Source: Thioalkalivibrio sp. XN8
GTDB lineage: Bacteria > Pseudomonadota > Gammaproteobacteria > Steroidobacterales > XN24
NCBI RefSeq assembly: GCF_011058255.1
Contig: NZ_JAALFH010000016.1
Span: forward strand, 1 to 64,000
Direction of reading: 5' to 3'
DNA: 64,000 bases
Shown here: positions 46,869-57,916 of the stretch, piece by piece
How positions within the stretch are numbered: position 1 is the stretch's first letter
Layout of the letters: each line of letters starts with the position of its first letter
Program-made: the position numbers and the translations under genes
The notes under the pieces: generated by a model
What the model was told of the DNA's origin: nothing
What the model saw: only the letters and a program-made list of their open reading frames with translations
The model's database searches: none

Positions 46869-47810
46869 CTAGTTGTAAAGCGTCCCGGTGTTCACGACCG
46901 GCTGCGTGTGCGTGTCGCTGCACAGCACCACGAGCAGGTTCGAGACCATCGCCGCGCGCCGCTCGTCGTCGAGCTCGACGATCTGGTCCCGCGCGAGATG
47001 GTCGAGCGCCATCTGCACCATGCCGACCGCCCCCTCGACGATCTTGGTGCGCGCCGCAACGACGGCCTGCGCCTGCTGCCGTTGCAGCATGGCCGCGGCA
47101 ATCTCGGAGGCGTACGCCAAGTGGCTGATGCGCGCCTCTATGACCTCGACGCCCGCCTTGTCGAGCCGCTCCTGGATGTCTTCGCGCAGCTGCGCCGAGA
47201 TCCTGTTGGTGTCGCCGCGTAGCGACACCTCGTGATCTTCGCTGTCGTAGGGATAGCGGCTGGCCATGATGCGCAGCGCGGCCTCGCTCTGCACGGCGAC
47301 GAAATCCTCGTAGTCGTCGACTTCGAACAGCGCCTCAACCGTGTTGACCACGCGCCAGACCACCACGGCGGAAATGTCGATAGGGTTACCGTCGCGGTCG
47401 TTGACCTTGGAAGGCCGACCGTGGGTGCGGCTGCGCTGCTGCACGACTTGCCCGACGGAGTCTTTTTTCTCCGGGGTCGAAAGAGCGCCGGTTTCGAAGT
47501 TGCGTACGCGCAGCGACAGCTTTTTCTTGCTGAAGAAGGGATTGACCCAGAAGAAACCGGACTCGCGCACCGACCCCTTGTACTCGCCGAAGAGCAGCAG
47601 GACCCGGGAATCGTTGGGCGCGATCGCCATGAAGCCGAAGCCCATGACGAAGCCGACCGCCAGGATCACGATGCTGCTCGCGATGTGCCAGCCGGAGGCG
47701 CCGGCGTGCAAGGCATAGAAAAAATACCAGGGACCGGCGATCACCAGCGCGACGGTGACGACCAGCGGCAGCCAGCCCGACAGCGGGCGATACTCTCTTT
47801 CCTGAACCAT
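46869..47810 (-). CDS. SPFH/band-7 domain membrane protein
   Basis: A 313-residue protein with two N-terminal membrane segments (about residues 13-33 and 41-64) and then an SPFH (stomatin/prohibitin/flotillin) domain: [56 protein letters not shown] and the helical [41 protein letters not shown]. Such proteins oligomerise into membrane microdomain scaffolds or cage-like rings. A possible extended -10 (TG-A-TATCAT) lies about 45 bases upstream, separating it from the leuB end. One base after its stop begins a ribbon-helix-helix gene. Confidence 0.9.
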
Positions 47811-47888: not shown

Positions 47889-48971
47889 TCAGGCGATTGC
47901 CCGCGCCGGTCCCTCGCTGATCGCGGCCGCGATCGCCGCCCCGACCGCCCGCGTCGGGCTGCCGCGCTCCCGGCCCACCACGTCCACCGTGCCGATGCCC
48001 CGCCCCAGCGCCTCGTACGTCGCCTGCTCGACCGCCCGGGCCTCGGCCTCGAGCCCGAGCGAGTGGCGCAACAGCATGGCGGCGCTCAGGATGGTGCCGC
48101 AGGGGTTGGCAATGCCGCGCCCGGCGATATCGGGCGCCGAGCCATGGATCGGCTCGTACAGGCCCGGACCGGACGCCGCCAGCGAGGCCGACGGCAGCAT
48201 GCCGATCGAGCCGGCGAGCACCGAGGCCTCGTCGGTCAGGATGTCGCCGAACATGTTCTCCGTGACCACCACGTCGAAGCGCCGGGGATCCTGCAGCAGC
48301 TGCATCGCCACCGCGTCCACCAGCGCGTGCTCCAGCTTCACGTCCGGGAATTCCTCGCGCCCGAGCCGGGTCGCGATCTCGCGCCACAGGCGCGAGGTCT
48401 CCAGCACGTTCGCCTTGTCTACCGAGGTCACGACCCCGCGCCGCGCGCGCGCCGTCTCAAAGGCCAGCCGCAGCACGCGCTCGATCTCCTCGCGGGTGTA
48501 GCTGCAAAGGTCGGAGGCCCGGTCCGCGTCGCGCTGCTTGGCGCCGAAATAGATCCCGCCGGTCAACTCGCGGACGAACAGTATGTCCACGCCATCGAGC
48601 AATGACTCCTTCAGGGGCGAGGCGCCGTACAGGGCCGGCAAGGTCATGACCGGCCGCAGGTTCGCGAACACCCCCAGCGCGCGGCGCAGCGCCAGCAGGC
48701 CCTGCTCGGGCCGGACCGGCGCGGACGGGTCGGACCACTGCGGTCCGCCGACGGCCCCGAGCAGGACCCCGGCGCTGGCCTGGCAGAGGGCCGTCGTCTC
48801 CGCCGGCAGCGGCTGCCCGGTGGCGTCGATAGCGCCGCCGCCGATCAGTCCCTCGCGGAACTCGAAGTCATGGCCGAAGGTGTCCGCCACCGCCGCCAGC
48901 ACCACCCGCGCCGCGGCGACGATCTCCGGCCCGACGCCGTCGCCGGGCAGGAGCGCAATCAGGCGCGACAC
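47889..48971 (-). CDS. leuB: 3-isopropylmalate dehydrogenase
   Basis: A 360-residue NAD-dependent enzyme, oxidising and decarboxylating 3-isopropylmalate in leucine synthesis. It has [19 protein letters not shown] at the N-terminus, the substrate arginines in [12 protein letters not shown] and [11 protein letters not shown], the metal-binding [22 protein letters not shown] and [20 protein letters not shown]. The start is GTG 48971, overlapping the leuD stop by 13 bases. It is the last gene of the nine-gene ilv-leu operon; SPFH follows after 78 bases and seems to have its own promoter. Confidence 0.96.
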
Positions 48972-49546
48972 GCGGCCCGGTCCTCATAAGCCTGGATGGC
49001 CGGAACCTGGCTCAGCAGCCAGCCGAGCGGGTCGATGCCGTTGAGCAGGCAGTGGCGGGCGAAAGGCTCGACCTCGAAGCCGGCCTCGCGTCCCGCCGCC
49101 ATGCGCACGGTGCAGTCGCGCAGGTCGATGCCGATCTCGGCGCCGGGATGCGCCAGCAGCCAGGCGTGCGAGTCCGCGTCGATCACCACGGGCAGCAGGC
49201 CGTTGCGCAGCGCGTTGCTGCGGAAGATGTCGGCGATCTCGGTGCTGATCACGGCGCGGAAGCCGTAGTCCAGCAGGGCCCAGGGCGCGTGCTCGCGGGA
49301 GGAGCCGCAGCCGAAATTGCGTCCCGCCACCAGGATCCGGGCGCCCTCCGCCCCGGGCCGGTTGAGAACGAAGTCCTCGCGCGGCCGGTTGGCCGCGTCG
49401 CGCCGCCAGTCGGCGAACAGGTGCCGCCCGAGGCCGTCACGCTGGGTGGTGGTCAGGAAGCGCGCCGGGATGATCTGGTCGGTGTCGATGTTGTCCACCG
49501 GCAGCACCACGGTGCGCGAGCTCAGCACGGTGAAAGGCTCGATCAT
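48959..49546 (-). CDS. leuD: 3-isopropylmalate dehydratase small subunit
   Basis: A 195-residue swivel-domain subunit of isopropylmalate isomerase. The [18 protein letters not shown]-terminus, the [17 protein letters not shown] signature and [21 protein letters not shown] are all present. Length equals the usual 200. ATG 49546 overlaps the leuC stop (ATGA). It must pair with LeuC for activity. Confidence 0.96.
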
Positions 49547-50964
49547 GCGATGCGCCTCCCTTCTTCCAGCAGCGGCCGCGGGTCCGCGACCTTGCCGGTG
49601 ATGGCGGAGGCCGCCGCCGTCAGCGGGCTGGCCAGCAGGGTGCGGGCGCCCTGCCCCTGCCGGCCCTCGAAGTTGCGGTTGCTGGTGCTGACCACGTACT
49701 GGCCGGCGGCCGCGCGGTCGCCGTTCATGGCGATGCACAGCGAGCAGCCGGACTGGTGCCACTCGGCGCCGGCGTCGCGGAACACGCGGTCCAGGCCCTC
49801 GGCCTCGGCGGCCGCGCGGACCTGCTGGCTGCCCGGCACGATCATGGCGCGCACGCCCGGCGCCACCCGGCGGCCGCGCAACACGGCAGCCGCGGCCCGG
49901 AGGTCGCTGAGGCGCGAGTTGGTGCAGCTGCCGATGAACACCACCTGCACCGGCTGGCCGGCGATCGCCGCGCCGGCGCTGAGGCCCATGTAGTCCAGCG
50001 CCTTGCGGTGGCCCGCGCCGGCCGGCGCGGGGATGCGGCCGCTGACGGGCATCACCATCCCCGGGTCGGTGCCCCAGGTGACCTGCGGCTCCAGCGCGCC
50101 GACGTCGATGGTGACGCTGCGGTCGTACTCGGCCCCGGGATCCGAGTTGAGTTCGCGCCATTCGACCACCGCCCGCTCCCAGGCCTCTCCCTGCGGTGCC
50201 ATCGGGCGGCCCGCCAGGTATTCGAAGGTGGTCTCGTCCGGCGCCACCATGCCGGCCCGGGCGCCGGCCTCGATCGCCATGTTGCACAGGGTCATGCGCT
50301 CTTCCATCGACATGGCGCTCACCGCCTCGCCCCGGAACTCGATCACGTGGCCGGTGCCGCCGTCCACGCCGATCCGGCCGATCACGCCCAGGATCACGTC
50401 CTTCGCGGTCACGCCCGGGCCCAGGCGGCCCTCGAGCTCGACCAGCAGCGTGCGCGGCAGCCGCTGCAGCAGGCACTGGGTGGCCAGCACGTGGCCGACC
50501 TCGGTGGTGCCGATGCCGAAAGCCAGCGCCCCGAAGGCGCCGTGGGTGGTGGTGTGGCTGTCGCCGCAGACGATGGTCATGCCCGGCTGGGTCGCGCCCT
50601 GCTCCGGGCCGATGACATGCACGATGCCGCGGCGCGCGCTGTTGACGCCGAACAGCCGCACGCCGGAGCGGCCGCAGTTCTCGCCCAGCGTGCGCACCTG
50701 GTAGCGCGCCGCGTGGTCCATCTCGCCGAGCCCGCTGGCCCAGCTCGCCTCGGCGGTCGGAACGGAATGGTCCACCGTGGCCAGGGTGCGGTCGGGCCGG
50801 CGGACCTTCAGGCCGCGCTCGCGCAACGCCGCGAAGGCCTGGGGGGAAGTCACCTCGTGCACCAGGTGCAGGTCGATATAGAGGACCGCCGGTGTCGCCG
50901 CGGTCTCCGGCACCACTACGTGCCGGTCCCAGACCTTGCGGAACAGCGTGCGGGGCGCCGTCAT
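49543..50964 (-). CDS. leuC: 3-isopropylmalate dehydratase large subunit
   Basis: A 473-residue aconitase-family subunit that isomerises 2- to 3-isopropylmalate with a [4Fe-4S] cluster. Cluster ligands are in [14 protein letters not shown] and in [10 protein letters not shown]. Other marks are [47 protein letters not shown] and the [22 protein letters not shown] close. ATG 50964 overlaps the ilvE stop by four bases; a longer in-frame start at 51021 would lie well inside ilvE. Confidence 0.96.
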
Positions 50965-51920
50965 ACGGCCACCGAGGCGATCGGCGTCACCGGCGCCGAG
51001 ACCGGCTGCAGCCAGCCCCACTCGTCAACGGTCTCGGCCGAGAACAGGCCGAAGAAGCGCCGCTGGACCTCCGCCGTGACGGGGCCGCGCTTGCCGCTGC
51101 CGACGGCGATGCGGTCGACCGAGCGCACCGGGGTGACTTCGGCGGCGGTGCCGGTGAAGAACACCTCGTCGGCGAAATACAGCATCTCGCGCGGCATCGG
51201 CTGCTCGTGGACCTCGTAGCCGGCGGCGCGCGCCAGCGTGATCACGGTGTCGCGGGTGATGCCGGCGAGGATCGAGCAGGCGGCCGGCGGCGTGTAGATC
51301 TTGCCGTCCTTGACGATGAAGATGTTCTCGCCCGCGCCCTCGCCGATCATGCCGTCGGTGGTCAGCCCGATGCCCTCGGCGTAACCGTGGCGCTTCGCCT
51401 CCATGCTGATCAGCTGGCTGGAGAGATAACCGCCGGAGGCCTTGGCGCCGGAGGGAATGGTGTTCGGCGCCACCCGGTTCCAGGACGAGACGCACACGTC
51501 CACCCCGTTCTCCAGGCCCTCGGCACCCAGATAGGCGCCCCACTCGATGGCGGCGATGATGACCTCGACCGGCGAGTCGGCCGGCGCGGTCAGCCCGAGG
51601 CCGGCATAGCCGCGGAACACCAGCGGGCGCAGGTACGCGCCCTGCAGGTCGTTGGCCAGTACCGCCTGGTTGCAGGCCGCCTCGATCTCTTCCTGGGCGT
51701 AGGGAATGGCGAGGTGATAGATCTTGGCCGAGTTGTACAGCCGGGAAATGTGCTCGCGCAGGCGGAAAGAGCGCGGGCCGTCCGGCGTGCGGTACACGCG
51801 GATGCCCTCGAACACCGACGAGCCGTAGTGCAGCCCGTGGGACAGTACGTGAACGGTCGCGCTCTCGCCGGGAACCATCCTGCCGTTCTGCCAGATGTAG
51901 CGCGGAAACTTCGGTGCCAC
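50961..51920 (-). CDS. ilvE: Branched-chain amino-acid aminotransferase
   Basis: A 319-residue class IV PLP aminotransferase performing the last step of leucine, isoleucine and valine synthesis. Features are [22 protein letters not shown], the PLP lysine in [47 protein letters not shown] and the [11 protein letters not shown] phosphate loop. The start is GTG 51920 behind GGAG. It is placed between leuA and leuC in the operon, 37 bases after leuA. Confidence 0.95.
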
Positions 51921-51957: not shown

Positions 51958-53497
<1,540 letters not shown>

Positions 53498-53508
<11 letters not shown>

Positions 53509-54589
53509 AGTGCAGCTCCCCGATCGGGAAGTACGGCATCGCTTTCGGCTGGTGCCGCGGCCGCTCGTCGGCCAGCGCCCGCATCAGCGTCGCGGCCTCG
53601 ATGTTGCCGCCGGTCAGCACCACGCCGATGCGCCGGCAGGGCTGCCCGGCGCAGTAGCGGATCGCCCCGGCCAGCGCCGCGGCGGCCGCGCCTTCGGCCA
53701 TCTGGTGCACCGTGCCGGCGTAGACGCCGATGGCTGCCTGGATCTCGCGCTCGGACACCAGCAGCATGTCGTCCAGCCGCTCCCGCAGCACCGCCAGCGT
53801 CTGGCGGACCGGCACCCGCACGGCCAGGCCGTCGGCCAGGGTATCGACCGCGGCGAAGGGATGGTACTCGCCGGTGTGCCAGGCGTGGTGCATGGCGGGC
53901 GCGTTCTCGGCACAGACGCCGATGACGCGCGTCGCCGGGCTCTGCGCCTTGACGACGGTCGCGACCGCGGCCGCCACGCCGCCGCCGCCCACCGGCACGA
54001 ACACCGCGTCGAAGGGCTCCGCCGCCTGGGCCAGCATCTCCAGCGCGATGGTGCCGGCGCCCGCGACCATGTCGGGGTCGCGTACCGTGTGGACCAGGCG
54101 GGCGCCGGTGCGGGCAGCGTGCTCCTCCGCCGCGATCATGGCGGCGTCGAAGTCGTGGCCGGACTCGATCACCCGCGCGCCCTGGGCGATGATCGCGGCG
54201 TGCTTCTCCGGGCTGATGCCGCGCGGCACGAACACCGTGCAGCAGACGCCGTGGCGCCGGGCCGCGTAGGCGATGGCGTGGCCATGGTTGCCGCGCGTCG
54301 CGGTGACCAGGCCCCGGCTGCGCTCGTCCGCCGCCAGCCGGGCCAGCAGGTTCATGGCGCCCCGGATCTTGCAGGAGCCCACGTCCTGGGCGTTCTCGAG
54401 CTTGACGAAGACCTCGCAGCCGAGCCGCGCGTCCAGCGTGGGATGGTGCAGCAGCGGCGTCGGCTGGAGCTGGCCCTCCAGCACCGCCATGGCGGCCTGG
54501 ATGTCGGCCAGCTCGGCCAGCGGCCGCTCGGCTGCGGCCGCGGGCGGGTTCGGCGCCGCCGGCGGCGCGATGGTGTCGGCGGTCAGCAT
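53498..54589 (-). CDS. ilvA: Threonine ammonia-lyase, short form without ACT domain
   Basis: A 363-residue PLP enzyme that deaminates threonine to 2-oxobutyrate for isoleucine synthesis. The Schiff-base lysine is Lys74 in GSCKIRGAMN; the Asn and cofactor loop are in TRGNHGHAIAYAARR and VPVGGGGVAAAVA. There is no C-terminal ACT regulatory domain, unlike the 514-residue E. coli IlvA, so it resembles the catabolic or serine/threonine dehydratase group in size. Its place between ilvM and leuA argues for a biosynthetic role. The alternative name tdcB is possible. ATG 54589 overlaps the ilvM end by seven bases. Confidence 0.88.
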
Positions 54590-54852
54590 GCTACGCTCCC
54601 CCCCAGCGCCGCCGGCGCCTCGGCGGCCGTCAGGCACGCCACGCTCCGCACGTCGTACAGTTTCTGGATCTGGCGCGTCAGCGTCTCGACCGAGCGGCCT
54701 GCGGAATGGATGTCCACCGTCACCTCGACGTGCTGTTCGCCGGTGTAGGCGTTCATGGAGGTCACGGCGAAGCCGCGCCGCTCGATGAGGCCGAGCAGCC
54801 GGATCAGGGCGCCCTCGACCTGGTGTAGATTCATCTGCAGCGTGTGGTTCAT
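54583..54852 (-). CDS. ilvM: Acetolactate synthase small regulatory subunit
   Basis: An 89-residue ACT-domain protein, the size of IlvM (E. coli 87). The ACT pattern is LHQVEGALIRLLGLIERRGFAVTSMNAY, then VTVDIHSAGRSVETLTRQIQKLYDV. It activates and tunes IlvG. ATG 54852 overlaps the ilvG stop (ATGA), the usual strict coupling of the two subunits. Confidence 0.93.
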   Translation of the reverse strand: MNHTLQMNLHQVEGALIRLLGLIERRGFAVTSMNAYTGEQHVEVTVDIHSAGRSVETLTRQIQKLYDVRSVACLTAAEAPAALGGSVAC

Positions 54853-56504
54853 GCGCTCAACTCCTCCATCATCACGTCGTTACTCTGGCCCGGCGGCACC
54901 AGCGGCCAGACATTGCTCTTCGGATCGATGCAGACATGGGCCAGCAGCGGGCCCTCGGTATCCAGCAGCCTGCGGATCGCGCCCTCGACCTCGTCGCGCC
55001 GCGTGATGCGGAAGGCCGGGATGCCGAAGGACCGCGCCACCTCGACGAAGTCCGGGTTGTCGGACAGGTCGACCTCGCTGTAGCGCTCCCCGTGGAACAG
55101 CTGCTGCCACTGGCGCACCATGCCCAGCGAGGAGTTGTCGACCAGCAGGATCTTCAGGTCCAGGCCGTAGCGCTTGATGGTCTGCAGTTCCTGGATGTTC
55201 ATCATGATCGAGCCGTCGCCGGAGACCGTGACCACCCGGGCGCCCGGCCGCGCCAGGCAGGCGCCGATGCCGGCCGGGATCCCGTAGCCCATGGTGCCCA
55301 GCCCGGCGCTGGTCAGGTGCTGCTCCGGGCGGTCGAAATGGCAGTGCTGCGCCACCCACATCTGGTGCTGGCCGACGTCGCAGGCGATGGTCACGTCCGG
55401 CGCCTCCTCGGTCAGGCGGCGCAGCATGTGGGGCACGTAGATGTCGTCGCCCGGCGCGTCGTAGCGCCAGGCGTGCTCGACCTTGCGCGCGGCGCACCAC
55501 TGCTGCCACGGCGCGATGTCCAGCCCGGTGGGCATGGCGGCCAGCGACTCCACCAGGTCGCCCAGCAGCCCGGCGTCGGCGAAGCGCAGCTTGCCGATCT
55601 CGCTCGGGTCGGCGTCCATGTGGATCACGCTGGCCTTCGGGGCGAAGCCGTCCAGCTTGCCCGTCGCGCGGTCGTCGAAGCGGGCGCCGACGCAGATCAG
55701 CAGGTCCGACTCCTGGATGGCGCGGTTGGCGGCCCGGTTGCCGTGCATGCCCAGCATGCCCAGGAAGTTCTCGTCGCGCGTGGACACCGAGCCGAGGCCT
55801 TTCAGGGTGGTGACCACGGGGATGCCGCTGGCCCGGGCATAGGCGCGGAAGGCGTCCACCGCGCCGGCGATCGGAATCCCGCCGCCGCCGTAGAGCACCG
55901 GCCGCTGCGCGCCCAGGATCAGCTCACGCGCGGCCTGCACCTGCGCGGCGTCCGGCACCACGCGCTTCGGCCGGCGGGTCTCGTAGATCGGCGCGTGCGC
56001 CGGCACGGCGTTGGCAATATCCTTCGGCAGGTCCACCAGCACCGGCCCGGGCCGGCCCTCGGCCGCGATCTGGAACGCCAGCGCGATGGTCTTGGGGATG
56101 TCCTCGGCGCGCCGGACGATGAAGCTGTGCTTGACGATCGGCATGGTGATGCCGAAGACATCGACCTCCTGGAAGGCATCGGTGCCCATCACGGTGGTCG
56201 GCACCTGGCCGGTGATGACCACCAGCGGCACCGAGTCCATGAACGCGTTGGCGATGCCGGTGACCAGGTTGGTGGCGCCGGGGCCGGAAGTCGCCATGCA
56301 CACCCCCGGCCGGCCGGTGACGCGGGCGTAGGCGTCGGCCGCCAGCGCCGCGCCCTGTTCGTGCCGGGCCAGGATGTGCTTGACGGAGGAGTTCAGCAGC
56401 GCGTCGTAGACGGGCATGATGGCCCCGCCCGGGTAACCGAAGATGATCTCGACGCCCTGCTGTTCCAGGGCGCGGACCACCAGCTCAGCGCCCTTGCTGC
56501 TCAT
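54849..56504 (-). CDS. ilvG: Acetolactate synthase large catalytic subunit
   Basis: A 551-residue thiamine-diphosphate enzyme forming acetolactate or acetohydroxybutyrate, the shared first step to valine/leucine and isoleucine. It shows [20 protein letters not shown], the catalytic Glu in [31 protein letters not shown], and the ThDP/metal motif [17 protein letters not shown] 56504 overlaps the ilvC stop by four bases. The partner small subunit ilvM follows at once. No frameshift as in E. coli K-12 is present. Confidence 0.95.
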
Positions 56505-57505
56505 GCGGCGTCCTGCTGTTCCGTACGCAGCCAGGACATGCGGGCCCGCAGCTCGCGCCCGACCTGCTCGATCGGGTGCGCCATGTCGGCGGCCATCATC
56601 GCCTTGTAGCGCGGCATGCCGGCCTCGTACTCGGCGCGCCACTCGCGGGCGAAAGTGCCGTCCTGGATCTCCTTCAGCACCGTCCGCATGCGCTCGCGGG
56701 TGCTCTCGTCGACCACGCGCGGGCCGCGGGTCAGGTCGCCGTACTTGGCGGTGTCGCTGACGAACTGGTGCATCTTCGCCAGCCCGCCCTCGTGCAGCAG
56801 GTCCACGATCAGCTTCAGCTCGTGCATGCACTCGAAGTAGGCGACCTCGGGCTGGTAGCCCGCTTCCACCAGGGTCTCGAAGCCCTGGGTCACCAGCTCG
56901 GTCACGCCGCCGCACAGCACCGCCTGCTCGCCGAACAGGTCGGTCTCGGTCTCCTCGGCAAAAGTCGTCTCCAGCACGCCGCCGCGGGTGCCGCCGATGC
57001 CGTGGGCGTAGGCCAGGGCCCGCGCCTTCGCCCGGCCCGTCGCGTCCTGCGCCACCGCCATCAGGCAGGGCACGCCGCGGCCTTCCTCGTACTGGCGCCG
57101 CACCAGGGCGCCCGGCCCCTTGGGCGCGACCAGGATCACGTCGATGCTGTCCGGCGCCTGGATCGAGCCGTAGTGGATGTTGAAACCGTGGGCGAACAGG
57201 ATCGCGGCGCCGGGCTTCACGCTGCTCTCGATGTCCCGCCAGACCCGGGGCGCCGCCATGTCCGGCACCAGGATGGCGACGATGTCGGCGCCCGCAGCGG
57301 CCCGGGCCGGGGGCGCGACCTTGATGCCGTCCGCCTCCGCCCGCTGCCAGCTCGGGCCGCCCGGCCGCAGCCCGACGGTCACGTCGATACCGCTGTCGCG
57401 CAGGTTGAGGGCGTGCGCCCGGCCCTGGCTGCCGTAGCCGATGACGGCGATGCGGCTCACACCCGCCTTGCCCTGCTCAACATCCGATTCGACGTAGATC
57501 TTCAT
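56501..57505 (-). CDS. ilvC: Ketol-acid reductoisomerase, class I
   Basis: A 334-residue short-form (class I) enzyme, reducing and rearranging acetolactate with NADPH and magnesium. The Rossmann loop is [18 protein letters not shown]; the metal-binding acidic residues lie in [18 protein letters not shown] and the knotted C-terminal domain with [15 protein letters not shown]. Glu and Asp ligands are present. ATG 57505 is the first start after the attenuator. First structural gene of the operon. Confidence 0.96.
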
Positions 57506-57550
57506 GCTCGATACCTTTCCTCAAGTCAAAAATTCCGCGGCCCAGAAAGC

Positions 57551-57586
57551 GAGAACCCCGCAGCCGTTTCCGGTTGCGGGGTTCTC
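57551..57586 (-). terminator. ilv operon attenuator terminator hairpin
   Basis: GAGAACCCCGCA (57586-57575 on the minus strand) pairs perfectly with 57562-57551, and four inner pairs close a GAAA-type tetraloop, giving a 16-bp stem. It is followed by a U/C-rich run (GCUUUCU) rather than a pure U tract. It begins 32 bases after the leader-peptide stop. The segment ACCCCGC (57582-57576) can instead pair with GCGGGGT (57634-57628) inside the leader-peptide end, forming an antiterminator. Confidence 0.75.
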
Positions 57587-57617
57587 TGGTTCGGTTCTCT
57601 GCCTGCTTTGCGCCTAC

Positions 57618-57773
57618 CTACACCATGACCCCGCTCTTCCCGAGTACGAGAATGACGATAAGGAGGCCAAGGAGGGCGCTGACTGCGTTGACCGGCAGGC
57701 GCTCAGGGGCACGGGCCAGGGCGATCGGCCGCTGCCTCGTGTTGTTCCTGCGCTGTGGCTTGCCGTGGGTCAT
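57618..57773 (-). CDS. ilv operon leader peptide
   Basis: A 51-codon frame between the operon promoter and the terminator hairpin. Its last part reads LPVNAVSALLGLLIVILVLG then KSGVMV and stop; 15 of the last 26 residues are Leu, Ile or Val, with a nearly unbroken run at 57674-57642. This is the design of the IlvL/IlvGMEDA and leu leader peptides, where ribosome stalling at scarce charged tRNA decides termination. The N-terminal half is basic (KPQRRNNTRQR). ATG 57773 has no good ribosome site, so the true start could differ; the hydrophobic end and the stop are firm. Confidence 0.75.
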   Translation of the reverse strand: MTHGKPQRRNNTRQRPIALARAPERLPVNAVSALLGLLIVILVLGKSGVMV

Positions 57774-57814
57774 TGTTTCGATAACGCTTGTTGCGCTGCA
57801 ATCAGCTTGGGCGG

Positions 57815-57845
57815 ATTCTATGCATAATGTTTTCGGCAGTGTCAA
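57815..57845 (-). promoter_or_regulatory. Promoter of the ilvCGMA-leuA-ilvE-leuCDB operon
   Basis: On the minus strand a perfect TTGACA (57845-57840) is followed by TAGAAT (57820-57815) with a 19-base spacer. The region is AT-rich. Transcription would begin near 57807, about 35 bases before the leader-peptide ATG. The spacer is longer than ideal. Confidence 0.6.
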
Positions 57846-57910
57846 CAGTTTTTTTAATCGGCTCCCGGCCACGGCCCCGCCTCGCCTCCGAAGCGGACCC
57901 GGGCGCACCT

Positions 57911-57916
57911 TATATT
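57911..57916 (+). promoter_or_regulatory. Possible ilvD -10 element (TATATT)
   Basis: TATATT lies 19 bases before the ilvD ATG, with GAGG between (57921-57924). It gives a short leader. No clear -35 is seen; the element is divergent from the operon promoter about 65 bases away. Confidence 0.4.

Follow-up and report, generated by a model that had tools for sequence, protein, structure and literature searches.

How the nine genes of branched-chain amino acid biosynthesis lying side by side in Thioalkalivibrio sp. XN8 are controlled is the question raised by the DNA in front of them. The 64,000-nucleotide stretch that was analysed (hereafter the window) carries these genes on its minus strand, from ilvC to leuB, preceded by a short open reading frame rich in Leu, Ile and Val codons and by a hairpin with a GAAA loop. 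A first-pass annotation had read this arrangement as an attenuator, and our analysis indicates that it is very probably a ribosome-mediated transcription attenuator placed before a nine-gene ilv-leu operon. The coordinates of all the elements are given in Table 1.

Table 1. Elements of the leader locus and genes of the ilv-leu operon in the window.
Feature	Position	Strand	Basis
-35 TTGACA	57845-57840	minus	sequence
-10 TAGAAT	57820-57815	minus	sequence
Promoter TTGACA-19 bp-TAGAAT (putative)	57815..57845	minus	sequence and family conservation
Leader ORF, 51 codons, MTHGKPQRRNNTRQRPIALARAPERLPVNAVSALLGLLIVILVLGKSGVMV plus stop	57618..57773	minus	ATG 57773-57771, TAG 57620-57618
Regulatory codon run, 10 of 11 codons Leu/Ile/Val	57642..57674	minus	sequence; codon choice unlike operon genes
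Segment 2 GCGGGGT, predicted antiterminator 5' arm, within last leader codons	57628..57634	minus	sequence, conservation
Segment 3 ACCCCGC, common to predicted antiterminator and terminator	57576..57582	minus	sequence, conservation
Segment 4 GCGGGGT, terminator 3' arm	57561-57555	minus	folding, conservation
Terminator hairpin, GAAA loop	57551..57586	minus	folding, family alignment
Interrupted T-tract TTCTCGCTTTCTGGG, overlapping outer stem	57541..57555	minus	4 T in first 8
ilvC start ATG	57505	minus	sequence
ilvC, ketol-acid reductoisomerase	56501..57505	minus	NCBIfam
ilvB/ilvG-type acetolactate synthase large subunit	54849..56504	minus	NCBIfam NF006524 (acetolactate synthase 2)
ilvM-like ACT small subunit	54583..54852	minus	NCBIfam, best match below curated cut-off
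ilvA-like threonine dehydratase	53498..54589	minus	NCBIfam, best match below curated cut-off
leuA, 2-isopropylmalate synthase	51958..53508	minus	NCBIfam
ilvE, branched-chain transaminase	50961..51920	minus	NCBIfam
leuC	49543..50964	minus	NCBIfam
leuD	48959..49546	minus	NCBIfam
leuB	47889..48971	minus	NCBIfam

A check of the sequence located the promoter, the leader ORF, the codon run, GCGGGGT, ACCCCGC and the terminator exactly where they had been claimed, segment 2 lying 8-14 nt upstream of the leader stop codon. The terminator stem, described before as being of 16 bp, had to be corrected, as it folds into 12 pairs, an A.C mismatch and three more pairs around the GAAA loop (15 pairs in total). 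The statement that all the parts are in working order was also too strong: the parts are present, but the U-tract is interrupted and the promoter has a spacer of 19 bp. The scan program used, which accepts spacers of 16-18, predicted no promoter on the minus strand, and no Shine-Dalgarno sequence was seen by eye before the leader ORF. All seven members of the family match TTGAC[AT]-19-TA[AG]A[AC]T at this place. The conserved 19-bp spacer (window 57815-57845) may point to an activator or to a special control of initiation.

Regarding the folding, the segment 57592-57545 gave -30.8 kcal/mol (z = -6.4), a value that none of 200 shuffles equalled, and the competing antiterminator stretch gave -24 kcal/mol (z -2.7). 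With these two energies, switching would be decided by which segments are synthesized first, the usual situation in attenuators. The combination of elements is also rare in the window: when leader-like frames were defined by a 12-codon window with at least eight Leu, Ile or Val codons, eight were found on both strands of the 64 kb, and the 2-3-4 repeat set accompanied only one of them, the 51-codon leader before ilvC.

The leader, its Leu/Ile/Val run and the 2-3-4 repeat set are kept in the seven family genomes analysed, neither the codons nor either stem having been lost in any of them. Leaders of the family have 48-69 codons and end in the run followed by G-[KNT]-[SR]-G-V, after which ACCCCGC...GCGGGGT is found. 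The same leader end is shared by L007 and by L017 (CP070833.1, Gammaproteobacteria bacterium isolate bin107). Behind the leader, the order ilvC-ilvB-ilvM-ilvA-leuA-ilvE-leuC-leuD-leuB is the same in the genome studied and in the six others, four genera together, being readable in G004 only as far as a contig end inside leuB. G001 has leuA as two matching pieces, residues 176-247 being absent, a gap that is either real or due to the assembly. The conservation of the run, of both pairings and of the nine-gene order thus bears out the attenuator reading. In the family alignment of the terminator, 92 of 100 cells are paired, against 35-50% in slid controls, a comparison in which the structure taken from the window's own sequence favours the native alignment; three pairs have both sides changed, a number reached by 21 of 500 shuffles. 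The seven pairs of the segment 2:3 core are formed in all seven sequences (49 of 49 cells) and are invariant, so covariation was rejected as evidence for this pairing. The flanks of the antiterminator are able to pair in each species, and this was likewise discarded as evidence because 1681 of 5040 swapped permutations were as good as the native one. As a consequence, the case for the antiterminator rests on the conservation of the repeat set and on its place at the leader end.

On these grounds we infer the following control. RNA polymerase would start near 57808 and a ribosome would begin the 51-codon leader. A shortage of charged Leu-, Ile- or Val-tRNA would make the ribosome stall in the codon run and leave segment 2 free to pair with segment 3, in such a way that the terminator would not form and ilvC to leuB would be transcribed. 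A ribosome reaching the stop at 57618 would instead cover segment 2, so that segment 3 would pair with segment 4 and transcription would end near 57545. As to the geometry, a ribosome whose footprint extends some 12 nt past the A-site codon would leave GCGGGGT free when stalled in the run ahead of its last codon, and would cover it when placed at the stop codon.

One element that counts against this control is the T-tract. After the terminator core (TTCTCGCT), T occupies four of eight positions here, three of eight in L003, five of eight in L004 and all eight in the other four family members. In the order to which the family belongs, T-tails were read in 74 of the 80 sequences described below (after the last G[CT]GGGG, a motif that may not always mark the terminator), and 54 of them have seven or eight T, only six having four or fewer. 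In addition, the scan program predicted no terminator on the minus strand. These data would agree with an attenuator that worked in the ancestor and whose U-tract eroded in this genus, leaving a leaky hairpin with poor termination or with a requirement for NusA, NusG or Rho, and a mostly constitutive expression. However, the stem is stronger here than in the four members with a full U-tract (-30.6 vs -21.1 to -24.5 kcal/mol), T is found at seven of the first 12 bases past the core, and synonymous variation in the run and the tail of the leader, as described below, is still low. We therefore regard such a decay as unlikely, and a functional attenuator as the better explanation of the locus.

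Codon choice in the leader is peculiar. In the 15-codon runs of the seven family leaders, the 39 Leu codons are 25 CTC, 14 CTT and not a single CTG, whereas CTG makes up 69% of Leu codons in the operon genes (84% in the window). Similarly, ATT accounts for 16 of 21 Ile codons in the runs vs 8.6% in the operon genes, and GTA for 11 of 22 Val codons vs 6%, all these counts being drawn from related and not independent species. Outside the run the leader uses CTG normally (seven of 10 Leu codons). Synonymous differences in the run and tail amounted to 0.11, 0.28, 0.16 and 0.11 in four pairs of genomes, compared with 0.29, 0.32, 0.39 and 0.57 for ilvC, although the comparison is small, each pair having only 2 to 5 synonymous changes. 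The N-terminal part of the leader evolves fast (pN 0.12-0.35). Both observations point to selection on the RNA rather than on the peptide.

The same data bear on the idea that the product of the ORF is a small membrane peptide with a function of its own and that the hairpin is a separate terminator of the 5' UTR. The seven family leaders do have, by eye, a basic N-terminal part and a hydrophobic stretch, and a leader peptide acting in trans, peTrpL, has been described (PMC7298713). However, it is the N-terminal part that changes rapidly, and in the run and tail conservation extends to the synonymous sites; the run has its special codon choice, GCGGGGT falls within the last codons of all seven family leaders, and distant leaders have, by eye, little in common beyond the Leu/Ile/Val run and a G-rich end. 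A membrane peptide of this kind is consequently very improbable. Still less credible is a T-box, a riboswitch or a protein-binding leader instead of a ribosome sensor, for although strong hairpins precede amino acid genes in those systems too, the leader codons are conserved, and a T-box or riboswitch identity was rejected after Rfam searches at gathering score gave no family, T-box included, either in the 64-kb window (with the Thr, Leu, His and Trp leaders also covered) or in 20 related loci, the best match below threshold in a low-threshold search of the 500 bases 57400-57900 being Thr_leader (16.7 bits, E 1.5). As neither the window nor the 20 related loci match Rfam, the loci found could serve as the basis of a family.

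Turning to the genes that the attenuator would control, seven of the eight gene junctions overlap by 4 to 13 bases, leuA and ilvE being separated by a gap of 37 bp, and these overlaps suggest that the nine genes form one transcript. The gene ilvD is divergent from the operon and lies outside the attenuator. About 20 bases before its start, the motif ATATAAGGTG (window 57906-57915, minus strand) is present in four of the seven family members and could belong to the ilvD promoter. After leuB a protein is encoded that is weakly HflK-like, scoring under the cut-off of the model (window 46869-47810); in L097 and L098 the HflK-like match comes about 1.5-1.7 kb further on, and the stretches from the other four family genomes gave no match.

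It had been claimed that the whole pathway except ilvD would be placed under one leader peptide. Second copies of ilvC, ilvB, leuA, ilvE and ilvA were searched for in the genome. For ilvB, leuA and ilvE no second match of similar strength was detected (the best others were partial, with 34%, 32% and 31% identity, respectively), and ilvA gave a single match at E 1e-60 or better. Nine genes do stand behind the leader, but the claim goes too far, given that a second ilvC, 55% identical, is located on contig C34 (G000:C34:29163-30098; L002; L103:5113-6108). No leader-like ORF was found in the 450 bases upstream of this copy, and the surrounding 10 kb contained none of the remaining operon genes used as queries. 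The second ilvC is present in all seven family genomes, the G001 copy having an in-frame TGA. If the attenuator works as proposed, a single leader would gate nearly the whole branched-chain pathway in this bacterium.

The distribution of the leader was studied in 196 genomes of the order, where at least 109 ilvC rows outside the family showed 61% identity or more. Upstream DNA was analysed for 80 of these orthologs and for 16 less similar ilvC rows (51-57%); four of the 96 matches begin elsewhere than at the start codon and were retained in the counts. A strict test, consisting of a leader and a perfect repeat set of at least six bases, was positive in 22 of the 80 orthologs, one of the 16 less similar ilvC, all seven family members and two of 800 block shuffles. 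In the only less similar ilvC retrieved in this way (L226), the supposed leader looks by eye like the terminal part of a small subunit of acetolactate synthase and not like a leader. A looser test, with a leader having at least six Leu/Ile/Val codons in 12 and a terminator hairpin with at least five T of eight, gave 57 of 80, one of 16, six of seven and none of 240 shuffles, respectively. When at least seven such codons were required the numbers were 48, one, six and one, and with at least eight they were 34, none, six and none. This leaves 23 of the 80 orthologs negative in the loosest test and 58 in the strict one, which speaks against the attenuator reading.

Among the named loci, leader and terminator were found in 25 of 72 (seven of the 79, L018 to L096, being left out), some of the 72 belonging to the same genomes as the order set; one of the 25, L030, looks false by eye and was retained in the counts. 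In the 2 kb downstream of ilvC, these 25 loci have leuA in 19 cases, ilvB in three, and ilvE and leuC in three, indicating that the ilvC leader is wider in range than the nine-gene operon. The codon bias is weaker in this wider set than in the family, with CTG in 50 of 139 Leu codons (420 of 806 in ilvC), CTT in 37 of 139 (44 of 806) and CTA in 15 of 139 (9 of 806), and the exclusive use of CTC and CTT is restricted to the family.

When all 42 tRNA places of the assembly were read, tRNA-Leu genes with the anticodons GAG, CAG, TAG, CAA and TAA appeared once each. A tRNA-Ile(GAT) was not seen among them, which indicates that the assembly lacks part of the tRNA set. Theory holds that a codon choice of this type can heighten the sensitivity of an attenuator (PMC1183508). 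On our reading, tRNA-Leu(GAG) would be a candidate sensor. Alternatively, the bias may serve to hold the run in an unfolded state by means of C/T-rich codons. A broader proposal is that these loci constitute a lineage-wide family of attenuators, not listed until now, in which the leader responds to single tRNA isoacceptors: the Leu codons of the family run, all CUC or CUU, would be read mainly by tRNA-Leu(GAG), which has a single gene copy, its charging would gate the Ile, Val and Leu pathway, and the cis element would have been kept while the operon behind it turned from ilvC-leuA types into one of nine genes. We put this forward tentatively, the balance leaning somewhat against it. The codon choice of the leader offers a clean test of selective-charging theory, as formulated in PMC1183508, in GC-rich bacteria.

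Whichever reason lies behind the bias, the attenuator reading is well supported. The switch would be of an ordinary, textbook kind, placed before an unusually complete operon and belonging, as a widespread member, to the known class of ilv/leu leader-peptide attenuators. In E. coli and S. typhimurium, the leu and ilv attenuators comprise a leader ORF with codons for the product, alternative 2:3 and 3:4 hairpins, an intrinsic terminator and a downstream biosynthetic operon, the E. coli leaders being shorter than 51 codons. The survey of proteobacterial amino acid operon attenuators by Vitreschak et al. in 2004, cited in PMC1262725, probably treats gamma-proteobacterial ilv and leu leaders. Our literature search retrieved no title dealing with ilvC leaders of this lineage, which says little as most subscription papers fall outside its coverage.

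In its leader run, its 2:3 and 3:4 hairpins, its terminator and the biosynthetic operon behind them, the locus resembles the attenuators that E. coli and S. typhimurium have for leu, ilvGMEDA and ilvBN. It differs from them in that ilvC comes first, in that ilv and leu genes are joined in a single nine-gene operon, and in its interrupted U-tract. The attenuators of these three operons in both species are named in PMC1183508. The Caulobacter ilv leader, as described in PMC4117421, also presents Ile and Val codons in tandem ahead of genes for acetolactate synthase, but it belongs to a two-gene operon of an alphaproteobacterium. Finally, the ilv-leu operon of S. aureus shares with the present locus a single leader containing Leu and Ile codons ahead of a joint ilv-leu operon, and differs in the phylum, in the gene order, in an antiterminator predicted to pair with the poly-U tail and in the additional action of CodY, according to the account in PMC5794164.
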